DNA of 64,000 nt from assembly GCF_014137855.1 (NCBI RefSeq), contig NZ_JACGWT010000001.1, forward strand, positions 1 to 64,000, read 5' to 3'. Under the pieces are notes generated by a model. The model was not told the origin of the DNA, did no database searches, and saw only the letters and a program-made list of their open reading frames with translations. The stretch's first letter is position 1. Each line of letters begins with the position of its first letter. This DNA comes from Microlunatus kandeliicorticis (GTDB lineage: Bacteria > Actinomycetota > Actinomycetes > Propionibacteriales > Propionibacteriaceae). The position numbers and the translations under genes are program-made. Positions 5,667 through 11,870 of the stretch are shown here, in pieces.

Positions 5667-5698
5667 GAGGCGGGCGAGCCCGACCGGCGGCTGCGCGA

Positions 5699-5704
5699 GA
5701 TAAT
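5699..5704 (+). promoter_or_regulatory. Probable -10 element of fbaA
   Basis: GATAAT lies about 90 bp before the fbaA ATG in a stretch that is less GC-rich than its surroundings. It resembles TATAAT. No clear -35 hexamer is visible at the right distance, so a leader of about 85 nt is only suggested. Confidence 0.4.
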
Positions 5705-5795
5705 TGCCGAGGCCGAGACAGCACACGAGACATCCGACGAACGAGCCAGGCTGGTGGACCAGGCTGGCGCACCCAGCAGACGAAAGCGAGACACC

Positions 5796-6817
<1,022 letters not shown>

Positions 6818-6821
<4 letters not shown>

Positions 6822-7894
6822 GCGACCGCCAGGGGTCCGGCTCCGCGGACGGAACGCACGTCCCGCGGAGCCGGGTCTGGGTCGGGGACCGGGTGGTGGC
6901 CGAGGACGTCGCCGGCCCGGAGACCGCCGACCTGCTGCACCACGAGGCGGACGCCTGTGCGTGGGCGGTCGTCGATCCGTCCGACCACGAGCGGATCGGC
7001 GGCGTGATCGACAAGTTCGGGCTCGACGAGTGGGTCCGTCGCGACCTGCTCGGTCATGATCACCACCCGGAGCCGGACCGGCTGGCCGCGCTCGGTCCCG
7101 AGCGCGCCGCCGGGCGTCCGCAGGTCAAGTACGAGGAGTTCGGTGACGTCCGGCTGGTGATCACCGCGGCCACCGAGCTGCCCGAGCAGCCACGGGGCCG
7201 GGACGCGCTCGACGTCCGCCGGGTGGCGATGGTGATCACCCCGCGGCTGCTGCTGGTGGTGGCCGGTCCCGAGGACGCCGACGAGCTCGGCCGGCACCTG
7301 GTCGCCGCCCAGTCGCGGCTCGGTCCCGGCGGCACCGAACGGGCGGCCCAGGCCGTCCTGCACGGGCTGTCGAGCGGCTACTTCACCGTGGTGCAGGCGA
7401 TCGAGGACGCCGGCGACGAGCTGGCCGACGCGCTCTTCGACCTGCAACCGCTGAGCCGGGAGGAGAAGGGCACCGCCTTCCGGCTGCGGCGCACGGTCAC
7501 CGAGCTCCGCCGGGTGACCGTGCCGATGCGCGAGGTGGTCGAGGGGCTCGGGCAGAGCAGCGCGGAGGAGCCGGGCAGCATCTCGCGGAGCTGGAACCTG
7601 CTGATCGAGCACCAGACCTCGGTCTCGGCCGCCGCCGACGACCTGCGCGACAGCCTGGGCGCGCTGTTCGACACCAGCCTCGCCTTCGACGACTCGCGGA
7701 TGAACGAGGTGATGAAGAAGCTGACCGGGTGGGCGGCGATCGTCGCCGTGCCCACCCTGGTCAGCGGCTTCGCCGGGATGAACGTGCCCTTCTGGGGCAA
7801 CGGTCACGCCACCGGCTTCTACGTCTACCTCGCGATCATGGCGGTGGCCTGCGTGAGCCTCTACGTGGTCTTCAAGCGGCTGGAGTGGATCTGA
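6818..7894 (+). CDS. CorA-type divalent metal (Mg2+) transporter
   Basis: A 358-residue inner-membrane channel of the CorA family. It has a long acidic cytoplasmic domain, a helical region ending in MNEVMKKLTGWAAI, TM1 closing with the signature GFAGMNVPFWG, and TM2 (FYVYLAIMAVACVSLYVVF) with a short basic tail. The GMN signature and two C-terminal helices are diagnostic; Mg2+ is the usual substrate, but Co2+, Ni2+ or Zn2+ export variants exist. The GTG at 6818 overlaps the fbaA stop (GTGA), implying translational coupling. Its 3' end overlaps the convergent gene at 7872 by 23 bp. Confidence 0.9.
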
Positions 7895-8201
7895 TCCCGC
7901 CGACCGCCCGGACCACGCCGGGCCCGGCCAGCGTGGCGGTGGCCCGCAACCGCCGGCCCAGCAGCCCGTCGGGCCGCTGACCGCCCAGCCGGTCGTCGTC
8001 CAGGGCCTCGCGGTCGACGGCGAGCTCCAACACCCCGCCCTGGTCGGCGACCCGCCGGGTCACCAGGTCGGGGAACCCGGCCACCGGCCCGGTCCGCTCG
8101 ACCCGGAGGGTGACCAGCTCCCACCGGTCCACGCCGGGGTGCGGTGCGTGCGCGGTCACGACGCCCTCGACGTCGGTGCGGTTCTCGCGGGCGACGACCA
8201 T
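7872..8201 (-). CDS. Small protein of the ATP-grasp/M6 protease unit, unknown function
   Basis: The product has 109 residues, no signal peptide and no membrane segment. The sequence is of beta-rich character (WELVTLRVERTGPVAGF; RLRATATLAGPG) with many Arg and Asp. No family is recognised. The ATG at 8201 lies inside the 3' end of the ATP-grasp gene (46-bp overlap) and has a strong GGAAGGAGGG site. It is thus the last gene of a four-gene minus-strand unit. The stop lies within the convergent CorA gene. A role as accessory or substrate-recognition protein for the ligase is possible but is only inference from position. Confidence 0.7.
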   Translation of the reverse strand: MVVARENRTDVEGVVTAHAPHPGVDRWELVTLRVERTGPVAGFPDLVTRRVADQGGVLELAVDREALDDDRLGGQRPDGLLGRRLRATATLAGPGVVRAVGGIRSTPAA

Positions 8202-9121
8202 CGCGTCCCTCCTTCCCCGGCGCCGGCCAGGTGGTCGACCAGCGACTCGCTGATCGGTTGCCCGGTGTGCGACTCGAAGAAGCTGTACCCGGGCATCGGG
8301 TTGACCTCGAAGCACACCCAGACTCCGTCCGGGGTGCGCCGCAGGTCGAGCCCGGCCAGCGGCAGGTCGAGCGCGGCCGCCAACCGGACGCACCGCTCGG
8401 CCACCTCCGGAGGCAGCGCGGTGGCGGTGAGCACCGCCTCCTCGCCGTCGCGGCCGGCGTAGCGGTAGTCGGTCGCCGCGGTCTCGACGGCGGTGGCGAA
8501 CACCCGCTCGCCCACCACGTGCACCCGGATGTCGACGCCGGGCACCAGCGCCTGGAACTGGGTGGGCAGGTTCCGAACCCGGTCGAGCCGGTCGAGGTAG
8601 CCGCGGTCGAGCCGCCGGACGATCGAGCGGACCCCGCTGACCGACTTGAACACCACCGCCCCGTGGGCGTCGGCGAACGCCCGGACCGCGTCCGGGTCGC
8701 TGCTCACCAGCGTCTCCGGCACCGCGAACCCGGCCTCCGCGATCAGCTGCGCCTGGAACGGCTTCGAGCTGTTCGAGGCCATCGCCACCGGCCGGTTGAC
8801 CACCCGGACCGGTGCGGTGTCCAGCCACTCGACGGTGAGGTCGACCAACCGGGCGTCGCGCTCGCCCCGTCGCGGGTCGCCGGGAGCCGGGACCGGGCTC
8901 AGCGGCCGCGCGTACACCGCGGTCACCCGCTCGAGCTCGACCCGGCGACCGTCGACCACGAACGCGCCGCGCAGCCCGCCGTCCTCGTCGCCCGCCAGCA
9001 CCAGGTCGGTCCCGGCGGTGGCGCGCTGGTCGACCACGAGGTGGTCGAGGCCGCGGTCCGCGGCGGCCCGCACGGCGCGGACCAGCGGCGGGTCGTCGCC
9101 GTACCCGAAGAAGACGATCAT
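8156..9121 (-). CDS. RimK-like ATP-grasp ligase
   Basis: A 321-residue ATP-grasp enzyme predicted to activate a carboxylate as acyl phosphate and join it to an amine or hydroxyl. N-terminal pre-ATP-grasp domain: MIVFFGYGDDP to VVNRP. ATP-grasp fold: VVFKSVSG (ATP-binding Lys near residue 160), the hinge LVPGVDIRVHVVG as in RimK, and LAGLDLRRTPDGVWVCFEVNPMPG with the Mg-binding Glu and Asn. All expected catalytic positions are present. The ATG overlaps the stop of the upstream degenerate paralog (ATGA). Relatives include alpha-glutamate ligases and graspetide (omega-ester peptide) macrocyclases. The neighbouring protease suggests a protein or peptide target. Confidence 0.85.
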   Translation of the reverse strand: MIVFFGYGDDPPLVRAVRAAADRGLDHLVVDQRATAGTDLVLAGDEDGGLRGAFVVDGRRVELERVTAVYARPLSPVPAPGDPRRGERDARLVDLTVEWLDTAPVRVVNRPVAMASNSSKPFQAQLIAEAGFAVPETLVSSDPDAVRAFADAHGAVVFKSVSGVRSIVRRLDRGYLDRLDRVRNLPTQFQALVPGVDIRVHVVGERVFATAVETAATDYRYAGRDGEEAVLTATALPPEVAERCVRLAAALDLPLAGLDLRRTPDGVWVCFEVNPMPGYSFFESHTGQPISESLVDHLAGAGEGGTRWSSPARTAPTSRAS

Positions 9122-9945
9122 GCGGCACGCTCCCCGGCTCCCGGCCGCGTCGACCCGAGCAGCGCGGCGACGGCGGCGAGCTCCGACCGCCCGGTCAGCG
9201 GCGGGACGGGGTCGGCCCCGAGCACCCGGCCACGGGCGTCGAGGTCGAGCCCGAGCACCCGGCAACCGCTGAGCGCGGCCAGCCGTCGTCCGGCGGCCGT
9301 CCTCCCGGGCCACGACGGGGAGCCCACCGGGACGCCGTCGACCAGCAGCAGCCGGACCGAGGTGGGCCGGTCGTCGAGCAGGTCGTCGTGCGGGAGCCGG
9401 GCCTGCCACGGCCCGCCCCGCCAGCCCGGGACCAGCCGGGCCGAGGTCGCCGCGGTGCGCGGGGCGACCGGCCAACTGGCCTCGGCGGCCGCGGCCCGCC
9501 ACCGGGCCGCCGACCACGACGGACCGCTCGGACGCTGGCCGTCCGGCCGGTTGACCACCCGGTCGCCGAGACCGGCCAGCCAGCTGACCAGCAGCGCCCC
9601 GAACTCCGACCAGGCGTAGTCGGCGTCGGCGGGCCCGACCGGGAGCCGCCAGTGCCTGCCGCGGAACCAGACCAGCCGGAGCCGGTCGCTGTCGATGACC
9701 ACCTCGGGGCCGGCGCCGGACCGGGCCGGCCGGACGGTGGTCGAGGACCGTCCGTCGGCGTGCACCCGGTGTTCCCAGCCGGCCCGGGCCAGCGCGTCGG
9801 TGCTGACCAGCAGCGGGCGGTCCCCGTCCCCGGCGGCGGGGGCGAGCCGGCACGCGGCCCGCGCCCCGCCGTCGGAGGGATCGGCCACCACCAGCACCGC
9901 GGGCGTCCGGGCCCCCGGACCCGGTCGGGTGCGGTCGGTGACCAC
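9118..9945 (-). CDS. Degenerate ATP-grasp-like protein (probable pseudoenzyme)
   Basis: No strong family match comes to mind for this 275-residue protein, but it parallels the neighbouring ATP-grasp ligase segment by segment. VWFRGRHWR matches the pre-ATP-grasp strand. VVNRPDGQRPSGPSW aligns with VVNRPVAMASNSSKP. RLVPGW...SVRLLLVDGVPV aligns with the LVPGVDIRVHVVGERV hinge. VLGLDLDARGRVLGADPVPP aligns with the Mg-binding strand but lacks the Glu and Asn. The Lys-bearing ATP-binding strand is also not apparent, so catalysis is unlikely. The GTG at 9945 follows the protease stop by two bases. I infer a regulatory or substrate-presenting partner of the active ligase. Confidence 0.7.
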   Translation of the reverse strand: MVTDRTRPGPGARTPAVLVVADPSDGGARAACRLAPAAGDGDRPLLVSTDALARAGWEHRVHADGRSSTTVRPARSGAGPEVVIDSDRLRLVWFRGRHWRLPVGPADADYAWSEFGALLVSWLAGLGDRVVNRPDGQRPSGPSWSAARWRAAAAEASWPVAPRTAATSARLVPGWRGGPWQARLPHDDLLDDRPTSVRLLLVDGVPVGSPSWPGRTAAGRRLAALSGCRVLGLDLDARGRVLGADPVPPLTGRSELAAVAALLGSTRPGAGERAA

Positions 9946-9947
9946 GG

Positions 9948-11870
9948 TCAGATCCGGGTGTCGAAGACGCGCTTGGCCCCGGCGTCGCCGGCCGCCATCC
10001 GCGCCGCCAGCTGCGGGTCGGGTCCGGTGCCCGGGGCGCCGATCAGGTCGGGCCGCAGGCTCGGGTCGATGAACGACGCCGCGGTCTCGGTCCCGCCGTC
10101 GGCGGCTCCCGCCGCGTCCGGGTCGCCGTAGACCAGCGCCTCGAGGGCGGCCACCCGCTGCTCGAGGTCGTCGCCGGGACCGGACGGTGCGAACCCGCCG
10201 CCGTCGCCCCCGCCGCCGGGCCAGTTCTCGCCGGCCTCCTTGGCGTTCTCCTTGATCTCCTTGGCGACTTCCTTGCGGTCCTTGAGGTCCTTGCGGGCCT
10301 CCTTGACCTCCTTGATCACCTCCTTGCGGATCTCCTTGACCTCCTTGCGGACCTCCTTGATCTCCTTGGCCACCTCCTTGCGGTCCTTGAGGTCCTTGCT
10401 GATCTCCTTGCCGTCCTTGCGGACGTCCTTGATGTCCTTGATCACCGACTTGGTGCGGACGGTGACGTCGGCGGTCATCGACGGGCCGGAGGCGGAGATG
10501 TGGGAGACGGTCACCGAGGTGCTCGCGCCCGCGTAGGAGCGGGTGTTCGGCGAGGTCGAGTCGTTGACCGCGGTGGTGTTCGCGCTGCCCGGGAACGGGT
10601 CGCCGGCGTCACCGCGGTTGTGGTCGAGCTCGAGGTCGCGCCGGCCGTCGGCCTGGAGCAGCCCGACCTTGTAGTGGTTCTCGTCGGTGTTGCCGGGCTG
10701 GTTCTCGTCGACGTGCCAGAGCAGCAACCCGCTGCCCGGCAGGTCGGCGTCGTAGCCGGTCTGCTGCCGGTTCTCGAGCAGGAAGTACTCGCTGCCGCTC
10801 GCGCCGTTCTGCCACAGCCGGAACATCGTGTGCCCGGTCTCGATCGCGGGCACGGTGATCGTCCCGTTGGTGGTCACGTTGGTCACTGAGGCCCAGCCCT
10901 GGTTGGCCTTGCACCAGGCGCTCGGGTGGGCGGGGACGTCGCCACCGCCGTTCCAGCTGCCGCCGGCCATCAGGCACCAGTTGCCGATGCCCTCGGAGGA
11001 GTAGTCGGTGTCGTAGAGGTCGGGGAAGCCGAACAGCAGGTGCCCGAGCTCGTGCGCCGAGACGCCGATCCGGGCGTCCTCGGGGATGGTCAGGTAGCCG
11101 TAGATCCTGGTGCCGTCGGCGTTGTAGACGCTGCTCAGCGTCGACTTGTGCGACCAGATGTCGTTCAGGCTGCCGGTCACCTCGGCGCCGGACCCGGCGT
11201 GCACGACGATGAACGCGTCGACGTAGCCGTTGCCGTCGTTGTCGTACGGCGCGAAGTTGATCGCCGGGTCGGCCGCGGCGGCGGCGTCGCGGGCCAGCTG
11301 CGGGCTGCGGAACGGCGTGCTGTTGAGCCCGATGCCCGAACCGTTGGCCGCGTACCAGGCCAGCGTCTGCGGCATCCGGTAGGGCCCCACCACCGTGCCG
11401 TCGAGGGTGACCAGCCCGTTGGTCACCTCCTGGTAGTACTCGCGGACGCTGCCGTGCGGCAGCACGCCGGTGGAGAAGAACAGGTCGCTGAAGTGCTGCG
11501 TGGTCTGGGTCATCGCGTGGTCGGAGAAGTCGACCAGCACCACGGCGACCCGGACGGTGCCGCGCAGCGGGGCGCGGTCGGCGGCGGCGTTGCGGATGGC
11601 CTGCAGCGGCGTGCCGACCGGGAACTCCTCGGGCGGCACGATCACGCCGTCGTTGAAGCCGAGCCGGCGTGGCTCCCGGCGCAGCGTGAACCGGGCGGAG
11701 TCGTCGCCGCGGAGCCGCCGCTGGGCGGTGTCGAGCTGGCCGGACCAGCGCTCGCGGAGCTCGGGGCTGGGTGCGATGGCGCAGGTGCCGTGGCGCTGGT
11801 CCTCGGTGAGGCCGGCCGTGGCACCAGCAGCGCCGTGGTCGTGCTGGTGGTCGTGCGGGTGATCGAACAT
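9948..11870 (-). CDS. M6-type zinc metalloprotease with Lys/Glu-rich repeat tail
   Basis: A 640-residue protein. The N-terminus is His-rich (MFDHPHDHQHDHG) with no signal peptide. CAIAPSPELRERW near 30-42 resembles the propeptide start of M6 peptidases. The catalytic part holds YDNDGNGYVDAF (Ca-loop-like, 209-220) and SAHELGHLLFGFPDLYD with the zinc ligands HELGH at 273-277. A beta-rich domain follows. Residues about 474-546 are almost only Lys, Glu, Asp, Arg and Val/Ile, with KDLKDRKEVAKEIKE repeated exactly at 492 and 527. Then come a Gly-rich linker, a short coiled coil (DDLEQRVAALEALVYG) and a C-terminus with SFIDPSLRPDL. The ATG at 11870 has AAGGGGG upstream. It heads the four-gene unit with the ATP-grasp pair. 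Confidence 0.85.
   Translation of the reverse strand: MFDHPHDHQHDHGAAGATAGLTEDQRHGTCAIAPSPELRERWSGQLDTAQRRLRGDDSARFTLRREPRRLGFNDGVIVPPEEFPVGTPLQAIRNAAADRAPLRGTVRVAVVLVDFSDHAMTQTTQHFSDLFFSTGVLPHGSVREYYQEVTNGLVTLDGTVVGPYRMPQTLAWYAANGSGIGLNSTPFRSPQLARDAAAAADPAINFAPYDNDGNGYVDAFIVVHAGSGAEVTGSLNDIWSHKSTLSSVYNADGTRIYGYLTIPEDARIGVSAHELGHLLFGFPDLYDTDYSSEGIGNWCLMAGGSWNGGGDVPAHPSAWCKANQGWASVTNVTTNGTITVPAIETGHTMFRLWQNGASGSEYFLLENRQQTGYDADLPGSGLLLWHVDENQPGNTDENHYKVGLLQADGRRDLELDHNRGDAGDPFPGSANTTAVNDSTSPNTRSYAGASTSVTVSHISASGPSMTADVTVRTKSVIKDIKDVRKDGKEISKDLKDRKEVAKEIKEVRKEVKEIRKEVIKEVKEARKDLKDRKEVAKEIKENAKEAGENWPGGGGDGGGFAPSGPGDDLEQRVAALEALVYGDPDAAGAADGGTETAASFIDPSLRPDLIGAPGTGPDPQLAARMAAGDAGAKRVFDTRI
10248..10397 (-). 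repeat. In-gene repeat encoding KDLKDRKEVAKEIKE twice
   Basis: Two 45-bp segments (10353-10397 and 10248-10292) encode the same 15 residues, 35 codons apart. Between them are further KEVRKEVKEIRKEV-type units built on AAGGAG. The region gives the protease a highly charged, probably helical tail. Confidence 0.9.

Follow-up and report, generated by a model that had tools for sequence, protein, structure and literature searches.

The window analysed here, i.e. the whole stretch of 64,000 nucleotides at positions 1 to 64,000 of contig NZ_JACGWT010000001.1 of Microlunatus kandeliicorticis (assembly GCF_014137855.1, forward strand), contains a unit of four minus-strand genes that runs from position 11870 down to 7872. 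It consists of a protease gene, two ATP-grasp genes and a small gene, and its subject of interest is the C-terminal tail of the protease, which recurs on unrelated proteins beside related ligases. The genes are closely packed. The protease gene ends at 9948 and is followed by a GTG at 9945, a gap of 2 nucleotides; the degenerate ATP-grasp gene ends at 9118 and overlaps the ligase start at 9121 by 4 nucleotides; the ligase end at 8156 overlaps the start of the small gene at 8201 by 46 nucleotides. All three junctions are as the initial annotation of this locus gave them. The features are as follows.

9948..11870, minus strand: carrier protein of 640 amino acids, an M6-type metalloprotease with a C-terminal tail module, from the reading frame and domain scans
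10713..11543, minus strand: M6 peptidase domain, residues 110-386, with an HELGH sequence that is invariant in the five M6 carriers
10227..10451, minus strand: Lys/Glu/Asp tail, residues 474-548 as cut by hand, with 21 Lys and 21 acidic residues; proposed core for cross-linking
10044..10073, minus strand: C-terminal motif FIDPSLRPDL, of which FI....RP is invariant in the aligned carriers; proposed follower recruiting the ligase
9118..9945, minus strand: degenerate ATP-grasp protein (pseudoenzyme), a relative of the graspetide macrocyclases by profile alignment and a structure model; proposed partner or substrate-binding subunit
8156..9121, minus strand: ATP-grasp ligase of the graspetide-synthetase type, 321 amino acids, with the expected catalytic residues intact
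7872..8201, minus strand: small protein of 109 amino acids, with relatives beside M6 proteases both with and without a ligase; proposed M6-specific partner or inhibitor

The ligase was compared over 20 ligase-family loci from several phyla: the window, 6 from genome contigs, 1 IMG/VR contig, 10 from sampled genomes and 2 loci that were held out. The hosts named are a myxobacterium, a Methylobacterium, a Bradyrhizobium, an acidobacterium, a Nakamurella and an alphaproteobacterium. At least three genomes with a ligase match at E <= 1e-50 (centre genome counted) were found in each of the sets of 396, 247, 235, 248, 150 and 169 genomes, counts that are lower bounds as the best 5 to 15 first-look candidates per genome were scored. 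Among the ligase-positive genomes one distant match was seen at 180 bits (set of 247) and one at 181 bits (set of 235).

Judged by profile comparison, the ligase is closest to the graspetide macrocyclases such as PsnB and MdnC and not to RimK. Its best NCBIfam model is TIGR04187 (ATP-grasp ribosomal peptide maturase), with 144.2 bits against a cut-off of 350, and it is below the cut-offs of the MvdC and MvdD models. A profile of seven ligases matches PsnB, MdnC, CdnC, MdnB, PruB and AMdnB over nearly the full length. The best solved relative is 7drm (PsnB; positions 2-306, 148.8 bits), and 7drm, 5ig9, 7mgv and 9bou are all matched over about 2-306, the N-terminal pre-ATP-grasp part included. 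The best RimK entry, in contrast, scores 54.9 bits over 114-304 of the ligase profile, and RimK is matched over the second half only, from about 113. The term 'RimK-like' used in the initial annotation was too broad, since the match to RimK is limited to the ATP-grasp half. Lys159, Asp259, Glu272 and Asn274, which we take to be the ATP-grasp catalytic residues, are invariant in the seven ligases and align with PsnB. A plasmid search with the ligase gave 39 records, all below 60% identity; among the matches listed (30 of the 39), 16 are annotated as graspetide-type maturases or as MvdC/MvdD. Most forks of the ligase tree are weak, 4 of the 15 inner branches being starred.

The second gene is, on the evidence of its profile, a degenerate relative of the ligase. 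The two are paired with an hhalign probability of 98.5, as the initial annotation had anticipated in calling the protein an ATP-grasp pseudoenzyme. The alignment runs over 2-306 of the ligase profile, i.e. near to both ends, with the middle missing. The stretch with the catalytic Lys is absent and Glu272/Asn274 are replaced by Gly/Asp. A model of moderate quality (predicted local distance difference test, pLDDT, 68) has PsnB as its best match, followed by PruB and AMdnB. In 17 of the 20 loci the pseudoenzyme gene immediately precedes that of the ligase: in 15 of 18 by profile, of which 10 had formed the profile seed, and in both hold-outs. The count of 15 and those of the small protein below are from the first round of the profile search. 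As to the remaining loci, the pseudoenzyme is truncated in L038, was recognised by eye in L042 and was not found in L040. The L038 locus (5688-8035, plus strand), which consists of a ligase and a truncated pseudoenzyme with no carrier, lies downstream of an aldolase-like gene (fructose-bisphosphate type, by eye) and looks like a remnant.

The M6 identity of the window protease, also proposed initially, is clear: TIGR03296 scores 260 bits against a cut-off of 110.8 and PF05547 is also matched. The HELGH of the M6 carriers is presumably the zinc motif. Judged by hydropathy alone, the first 45 residues show no evident signal peptide, again in agreement with the initial annotation, and the protease is a single copy in its genome at the threshold used. 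The Lys/Glu/Asp tail is present as described there, with 21 Lys and 23 acidic residues by the fixed rule. A structure model of the whole protease with its tail was too poor to use (mean pLDDT 34.8), and the long tail helix in it is no evidence.

The tail is part of a module that is found in 17 of the 20 loci, always at the end of the gene product upstream of the pseudoenzyme. The module has a fixed order, i.e. a Lys/Asp/Glu repeat stretch and then FI....RP, most often in the form FI....RPDL. The motif occurs in 15 of 15 aligned carriers, a count that is partly by choice because 10 were picked by an RPD-type pattern and five by inspection, and in both hold-outs. The repeat tail is present in 14 of the 15 by the fixed rule, and shorter ones were seen by eye in both hold-outs. 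Otherwise the carriers are unrelated. By Pfam scans, the 17 comprise five with M6, one with S8, three with an S1/Nal1-like domain, one with M43, three with DUF6519 and four others. The S1-like carriers are those of L006 (Nal1 domain, presumably trypsin-like), L037 (Trypsin) and L043 (Trypsin_2, below its cut-off). DUF6519 was found in L036, L044 (its start cut by a contig end) and L090. Apart from the tail, the carriers of L005 and L007 show no domain known to Pfam, and that of L041 (511 amino acids) has no Pfam match and is by eye perhaps a cysteine peptidase. The carrier of L091 is a fragment at a contig end and was outside the domain scan. The tail module is a portable unit that occurs on several kinds of unrelated protein. 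In the ligase tree the starred pair L005/L039 has differing carriers, and S1-like carriers are found both inside and outside the L006/L037 clade.

A reading with the protease at the core of the system, as in the initial annotation, was rejected, since peptidases are replaced or absent across the loci. Of the 20 loci, 5 have an M6 protease and 10 have a recognised peptidase-type domain of any kind, as against 17 with the tail module. In other words, the ligase is found mostly without an M6 protease, an outcome that the annotation had itself named as speaking against its proposal. The protease is optional.

Some individual carriers deserve mention. The frame of L043 (2429-6256, plus strand) has 1276 residues and combines the S1-like domain with a very long tail, 829 residues by the rule used. 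Blocks around VEGGDPFQ..QGLQGASAPAALK are repeated there between the Lys/acid stretches, and a similar EGNPGDLG block is seen in L007. In the DUF6519 carrier of L090, PHROGs also gave weak matches, to a tail fibre protein and to an immunoglobulin-domain structural protein. Ahead of the carrier, L036 and L090 each encode a large protein that matches nothing in Pfam or PHROGs, and the L036 contig is filed as viral. At L045 (9165-11071, minus strand, on a 6.06-megabase contig) there is a frame break, a shift or a sequencing error. Two further proteins, L040:8477-9604 (minus strand) with DPKxxDPK units and L042:9441-9971 (minus strand) with EKKKxELEIDP units, are possible large graspetide precursors.

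The module is confined to the ligase loci among the sequences sampled. FI....RP in the last 110 residues was found in none of 630 other stop-to-stop frames of at least 150 amino acids from the same 18 loci, most of which are not genes, and in none of 369 frames of at least 60 amino acids around ten other ATP-grasp genes. Each hold-out has a single strict motif, which terminates the frame that precedes the pseudoenzyme, and the rest of the 139 frames there have none. When the pattern was relaxed to F[IVL], 2 to 5 residues and RP, three further frames were matched as well. No credible NCBIfam family was found for the tail end. The M6 proteins allow a direct comparison. All five that stand beside a ligase have the tail, and both tail and motif are missing in the six relatives whose fetched flanks contain no ligase. 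One of these six is 59% identical to the M6 domain of the window. The six are from four other places and the best 2 of 23 plasmid records, and the Fisher p of 0.002 (5/5 against 0/6) overstates independence because two of them share a genome and two a genus. The initial suggestion that the tail is the target of the ligase gains support here, as the same tail and motif are seen on unrelated neighbours and are absent from these six relatives. That the tail is a generic low-complexity sequence was rejected on account of the common end motif, which is absent from the controls and from the six. We note that a tail-less M43 protease (L039:10935-11822, plus strand) lies near the tailed M43 carrier and forms a natural pair with and without the tail.

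Further substrates elsewhere in the genome were sought with a tail profile in 15 genomes, and none was credible among the first-look candidates scored, which were capped at 150 in several genomes. The ligase neighbour was matched in 14, by construction, and the sole match away from it at E < 0.05 (G453, L062) is antisense to a frame of 1053 amino acids.

The composition of the tails is balanced. In 14 tails with 1263 residues there are 304 Lys and 320 acidic residues, next to 60 Arg and 59 Ser+Thr, and the difference between Lys and acids is at most 5 in every one of the 14, across repeat types as different as KDx or KEx, KKxEPD and EPKRV. In 14 of 15 carriers the core contains residues that can act as donors (Ser, Thr or Lys) as well as acceptors (Asp or Glu). 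Because Ser and Thr are scarce, amides are favoured over esters; of the two kinds of link within the tail that had been proposed for this ligase, isopeptides are the likely chemistry and esters are disfavoured. The balance also bears on whether the ligase could instead extend the tail. RimK-type ligases act on a protein tail and add glutamates, and are not known to join side chains. An enzyme that lengthens the tail or its terminus with Glu or another amino acid, and makes no cross-links, would fit the Glu-rich tail and the PF08443 (RimK) match of the ligase, 37.3 bits over a cut-off of 21. Addition to Glu, however, does not require that Lys be about as abundant as the acids in each tail; TIGR00768 (RimK type) stays below its cut-off (72.5 against 143.4 bits), and RimK-type ligases share the ATP-grasp half but give no match to the N-terminal part of the present ligase, which the macrocyclases match in full. 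We regard extension as unlikely.

These observations suggest, with fairly good confidence, a graspetide-type system in which the precursor is the C-terminal tail of the carrier: the motif would recruit the ligase, the pseudoenzyme would help and Lys-Asp/Glu isopeptide cross-links would form. First, FI....RPDL at the carrier end may bind the ligase as a follower that replaces the usual N-terminal leader. Then, to judge from the enzyme family and the composition, Asp and Glu side chains would be activated with ATP and joined to Lys of the tail, giving multiple intramolecular isopeptide (macrolactam) links with a loss of 18 Da each. The degenerate ATP-grasp protein may act as a partner subunit that binds the carrier or stabilises the ligase. 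The product would be a carrier, here a protease, with a stiff, lysine-blocked and protease-resistant tail, for which self-protection, restraint in cis, and assembly or anchoring are candidate roles. The radical S-adenosylmethionine (SAM) enzyme encoded directly downstream of the ligase at L039 (5240-7183, minus strand), a C-methyltransferase of the maturation of ribosomally synthesised and post-translationally modified peptides (TIGR03975, 629 bits), counts in favour of this reading and suggests that some tails are also methylated.

The system resembles those of the known graspetide macrocyclases (PsnB/plesiocin, MdnB and MdnC/microviridin, PruB, ThfB/fuscimiditide) in the full-length kinship of the ligase and its expected catalytic residues, in the adjacent candidate substrate with a conserved recognition motif (17 of 20 loci) and in the donor and acceptor residues arranged in repeats. 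It is unlike them in having as its substrate a tail attached to a folded protein, in the C-terminal place of the motif, in donors that are almost only Lys and in the degenerate second ATP-grasp that stands beside the ligase in 17 of 20 loci. Corallotide (graspetide group 15) is a close chemical precedent for the Lys-acid links. There a TIGR04187 ligase, the type of the best model here, makes Lys-Asp isopeptides in five KxxxD motifs of a large precursor, i.e. repeated i,i+4 links (PMC13097080). It differs in that the motifs which are modified come after the N-terminal part of its precursor, and the portions of that paper used here describe no fused enzyme, and name an oxygenase and a beta-lactamase as partners and no pseudo ATP-grasp (PMC13097080). 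ThfB still works when its leader is moved to the C-terminus, and its proposed key motif RPFG has Arg-Pro in common with FI....RP (PMC13003496). ThfB has also been reported to cyclise whole proteins (PMC12291112).

Several points weigh against this reading. Known graspetide leaders are N-terminal to the core, and the motif of the carriers is C-terminal to the Lys/acid tail. The best family model of the ligase is not reached at its cut-off. The carriers were partly selected for the motif, and the hold-outs, which were picked without it, reach low scores against the tail profile (14.9 and 10.7 bits). In several genomes the scan with that profile scored 150 first-look candidates, so that other tail proteins may be missed. 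The carrier of L036 has the motif and no Lys/acid-rich tail by the fixed rule; in the M6 carrier of L045 the tail repeats and the end motif are in different frames; no carrier was seen in L038; and the distant ligases L040 and L042 stand beside Lys/acid repeat proteins without the motif. Lys alone matches the acids better than Lys+Arg, but this test is modest (p = 0.019, n = 14), and a 1:1 ratio arises from every repeat unit that contains a single Lys and a single acid. In the hand-cut tails an acid follows Lys at i+4 in 201 cases as compared with 113.5 in shuffles, an excess that results from the repeat period. The excess at i+1 is larger (264 against 117), and the counts therefore do not single out a ring size.

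The initial annotation knew of no described system with such a set of genes, but a similar set is in print. In branch 8 of Makarova et al. 2022 the ligase has diverse peptidases and a truncated, inactive ATP-grasp as neighbours; its authors found no precursor for the branch and supposed that peptides are supplied by the peptidases (PMC8939145). The likeness lies in the peptidases of several unrelated families and the shortened inactive ATP-grasp beside the ligase, and it rests here on gene neighbours, not on tree placement. The match is inexact, since the present pseudoenzyme lacks the middle and keeps its C-terminal end (PMC8939145). If the published supposition held here, the peptidases would cut other cell proteins, the ligase would modify the released peptides and the tails would be incidental, in line with the association of such ligases with varied peptidases (PMC8939145) and with the 10 of 20 loci that have a peptidase here. 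We consider this very improbable. The common tail and motif are on the peptidases themselves, the motif is also on non-peptidase carriers (L005 and L007 without domain; L036, L044 and L090 with DUF6519; L041 without match), and the six M6 relatives with no ligase nearby have no tail. Set against the open-licence literature searched, the new point is that the likely substrate is borne by the neighbour itself. The precursor of branch 8 is probably a tail fused to a neighbour that is often, but not always, a peptidase, and this is offered as a simpler answer to a question open in print, i.e. what the protease-associated graspetide ligases act on. Another group of graspetides (group 32), which is possibly the same family, also has diverse neighbouring proteases (PMC13097080).

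A different possibility concerns the role of the tail. It could be a cis-acting inhibitor or zymogen lock whose inhibitory shape is set by cross-linking; 10 of 17 carriers have a peptidase-type domain and the graspetides characterised up to 2022 are said to be protease inhibitors (PMC8939145). The module is, however, shared by DUF6519 proteins and by carriers in which no other domain is known, and the tails vary greatly in length and repeat type, which makes such a function doubtful as a general explanation. Rather unlikely, too, is intermolecular cross-linking, in which tails of different molecules, or a tail and another polymer, would be joined into covalent multimers or anchors. Long ampholytic tails such as the one of L043 would suit it, and ThfB can cross-link assembled protein chains (PMC12291112). 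On the other hand, the graspetide products described in the portions of the literature drawn on here are mainly intramolecular rings, and no partner substrate is encoded in the unit of the window.

A wider form of the graspetide-type interpretation, which we hold to be slightly favoured, is that the ligase and the pseudoenzyme form a natural and portable protein-stapling system that cross-links the Lys/acid tail of any carrier with a C-terminal FI....RPDL, and that the outcome is armour or regulation and not a peptide product. In its boldest form the tail would be a lactam-stapled helical rod with links from Lys i to Asp/Glu i+4. If so, graspetide chemistry would serve as protein armour or regulation. 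Such a system would explain the odd Lys/Glu tail common to unrelated proteases, and the short tag and its enzyme pair might serve as a general protein-stapling tool. The carriers are also natural candidates for C-terminal recognition and whole-protein modification, which in the portions of the literature drawn on here are known from engineering only.

The small protein follows a different partner. Its relatives are seen in all five loci that have an M6 carrier, and the 13 others have none (p = 0.0001). Apart from that of the window itself, three of the five came up with the window protein as query (E 9e-10 to 1e-3), and that of L046 was new in the profile round (E 5e-19). The set of four genes, for whose co-occurrence the initial annotation had proposed a search, thus recurs outside the window. 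Four of the five M6-carrier loci, the window included, have the four-gene order on one strand; L045 is the exception, with its small gene on the other strand. Relatives also lie beside two of the six ligase-less M6 proteases (L084:5517-5885, plus strand, E 1e-9; L082:5255-5554, minus strand, E 9e-6) and in neither hold-out. The small protein thus belongs to the M6 protease rather than to the ligase, and its inclusion in the ligase unit was dropped. It probably restrains or assists the protease, and its relatives are possibly a family of M6-specific inhibitors or chaperones.

No close ligase was found in 19 genomes of the same genus, two of which have distant relatives at 76 and 90 bits, and the unit is for this reason a rare accessory module. 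On both sides the nearest genes are housekeeping genes on the opposite strand, i.e. a fructose-bisphosphate aldolase and a CorA-like Mg2+ transporter below the unit, and DUF3151 and adenylosuccinate synthetase above it. No export gene was seen among these nearest flanking genes. An export-type neighbour was noticed among the few flanking genes scanned at L043, where a HlyD-family secretion protein (8409-9344, minus strand) lies near the ligase on the opposite strand.

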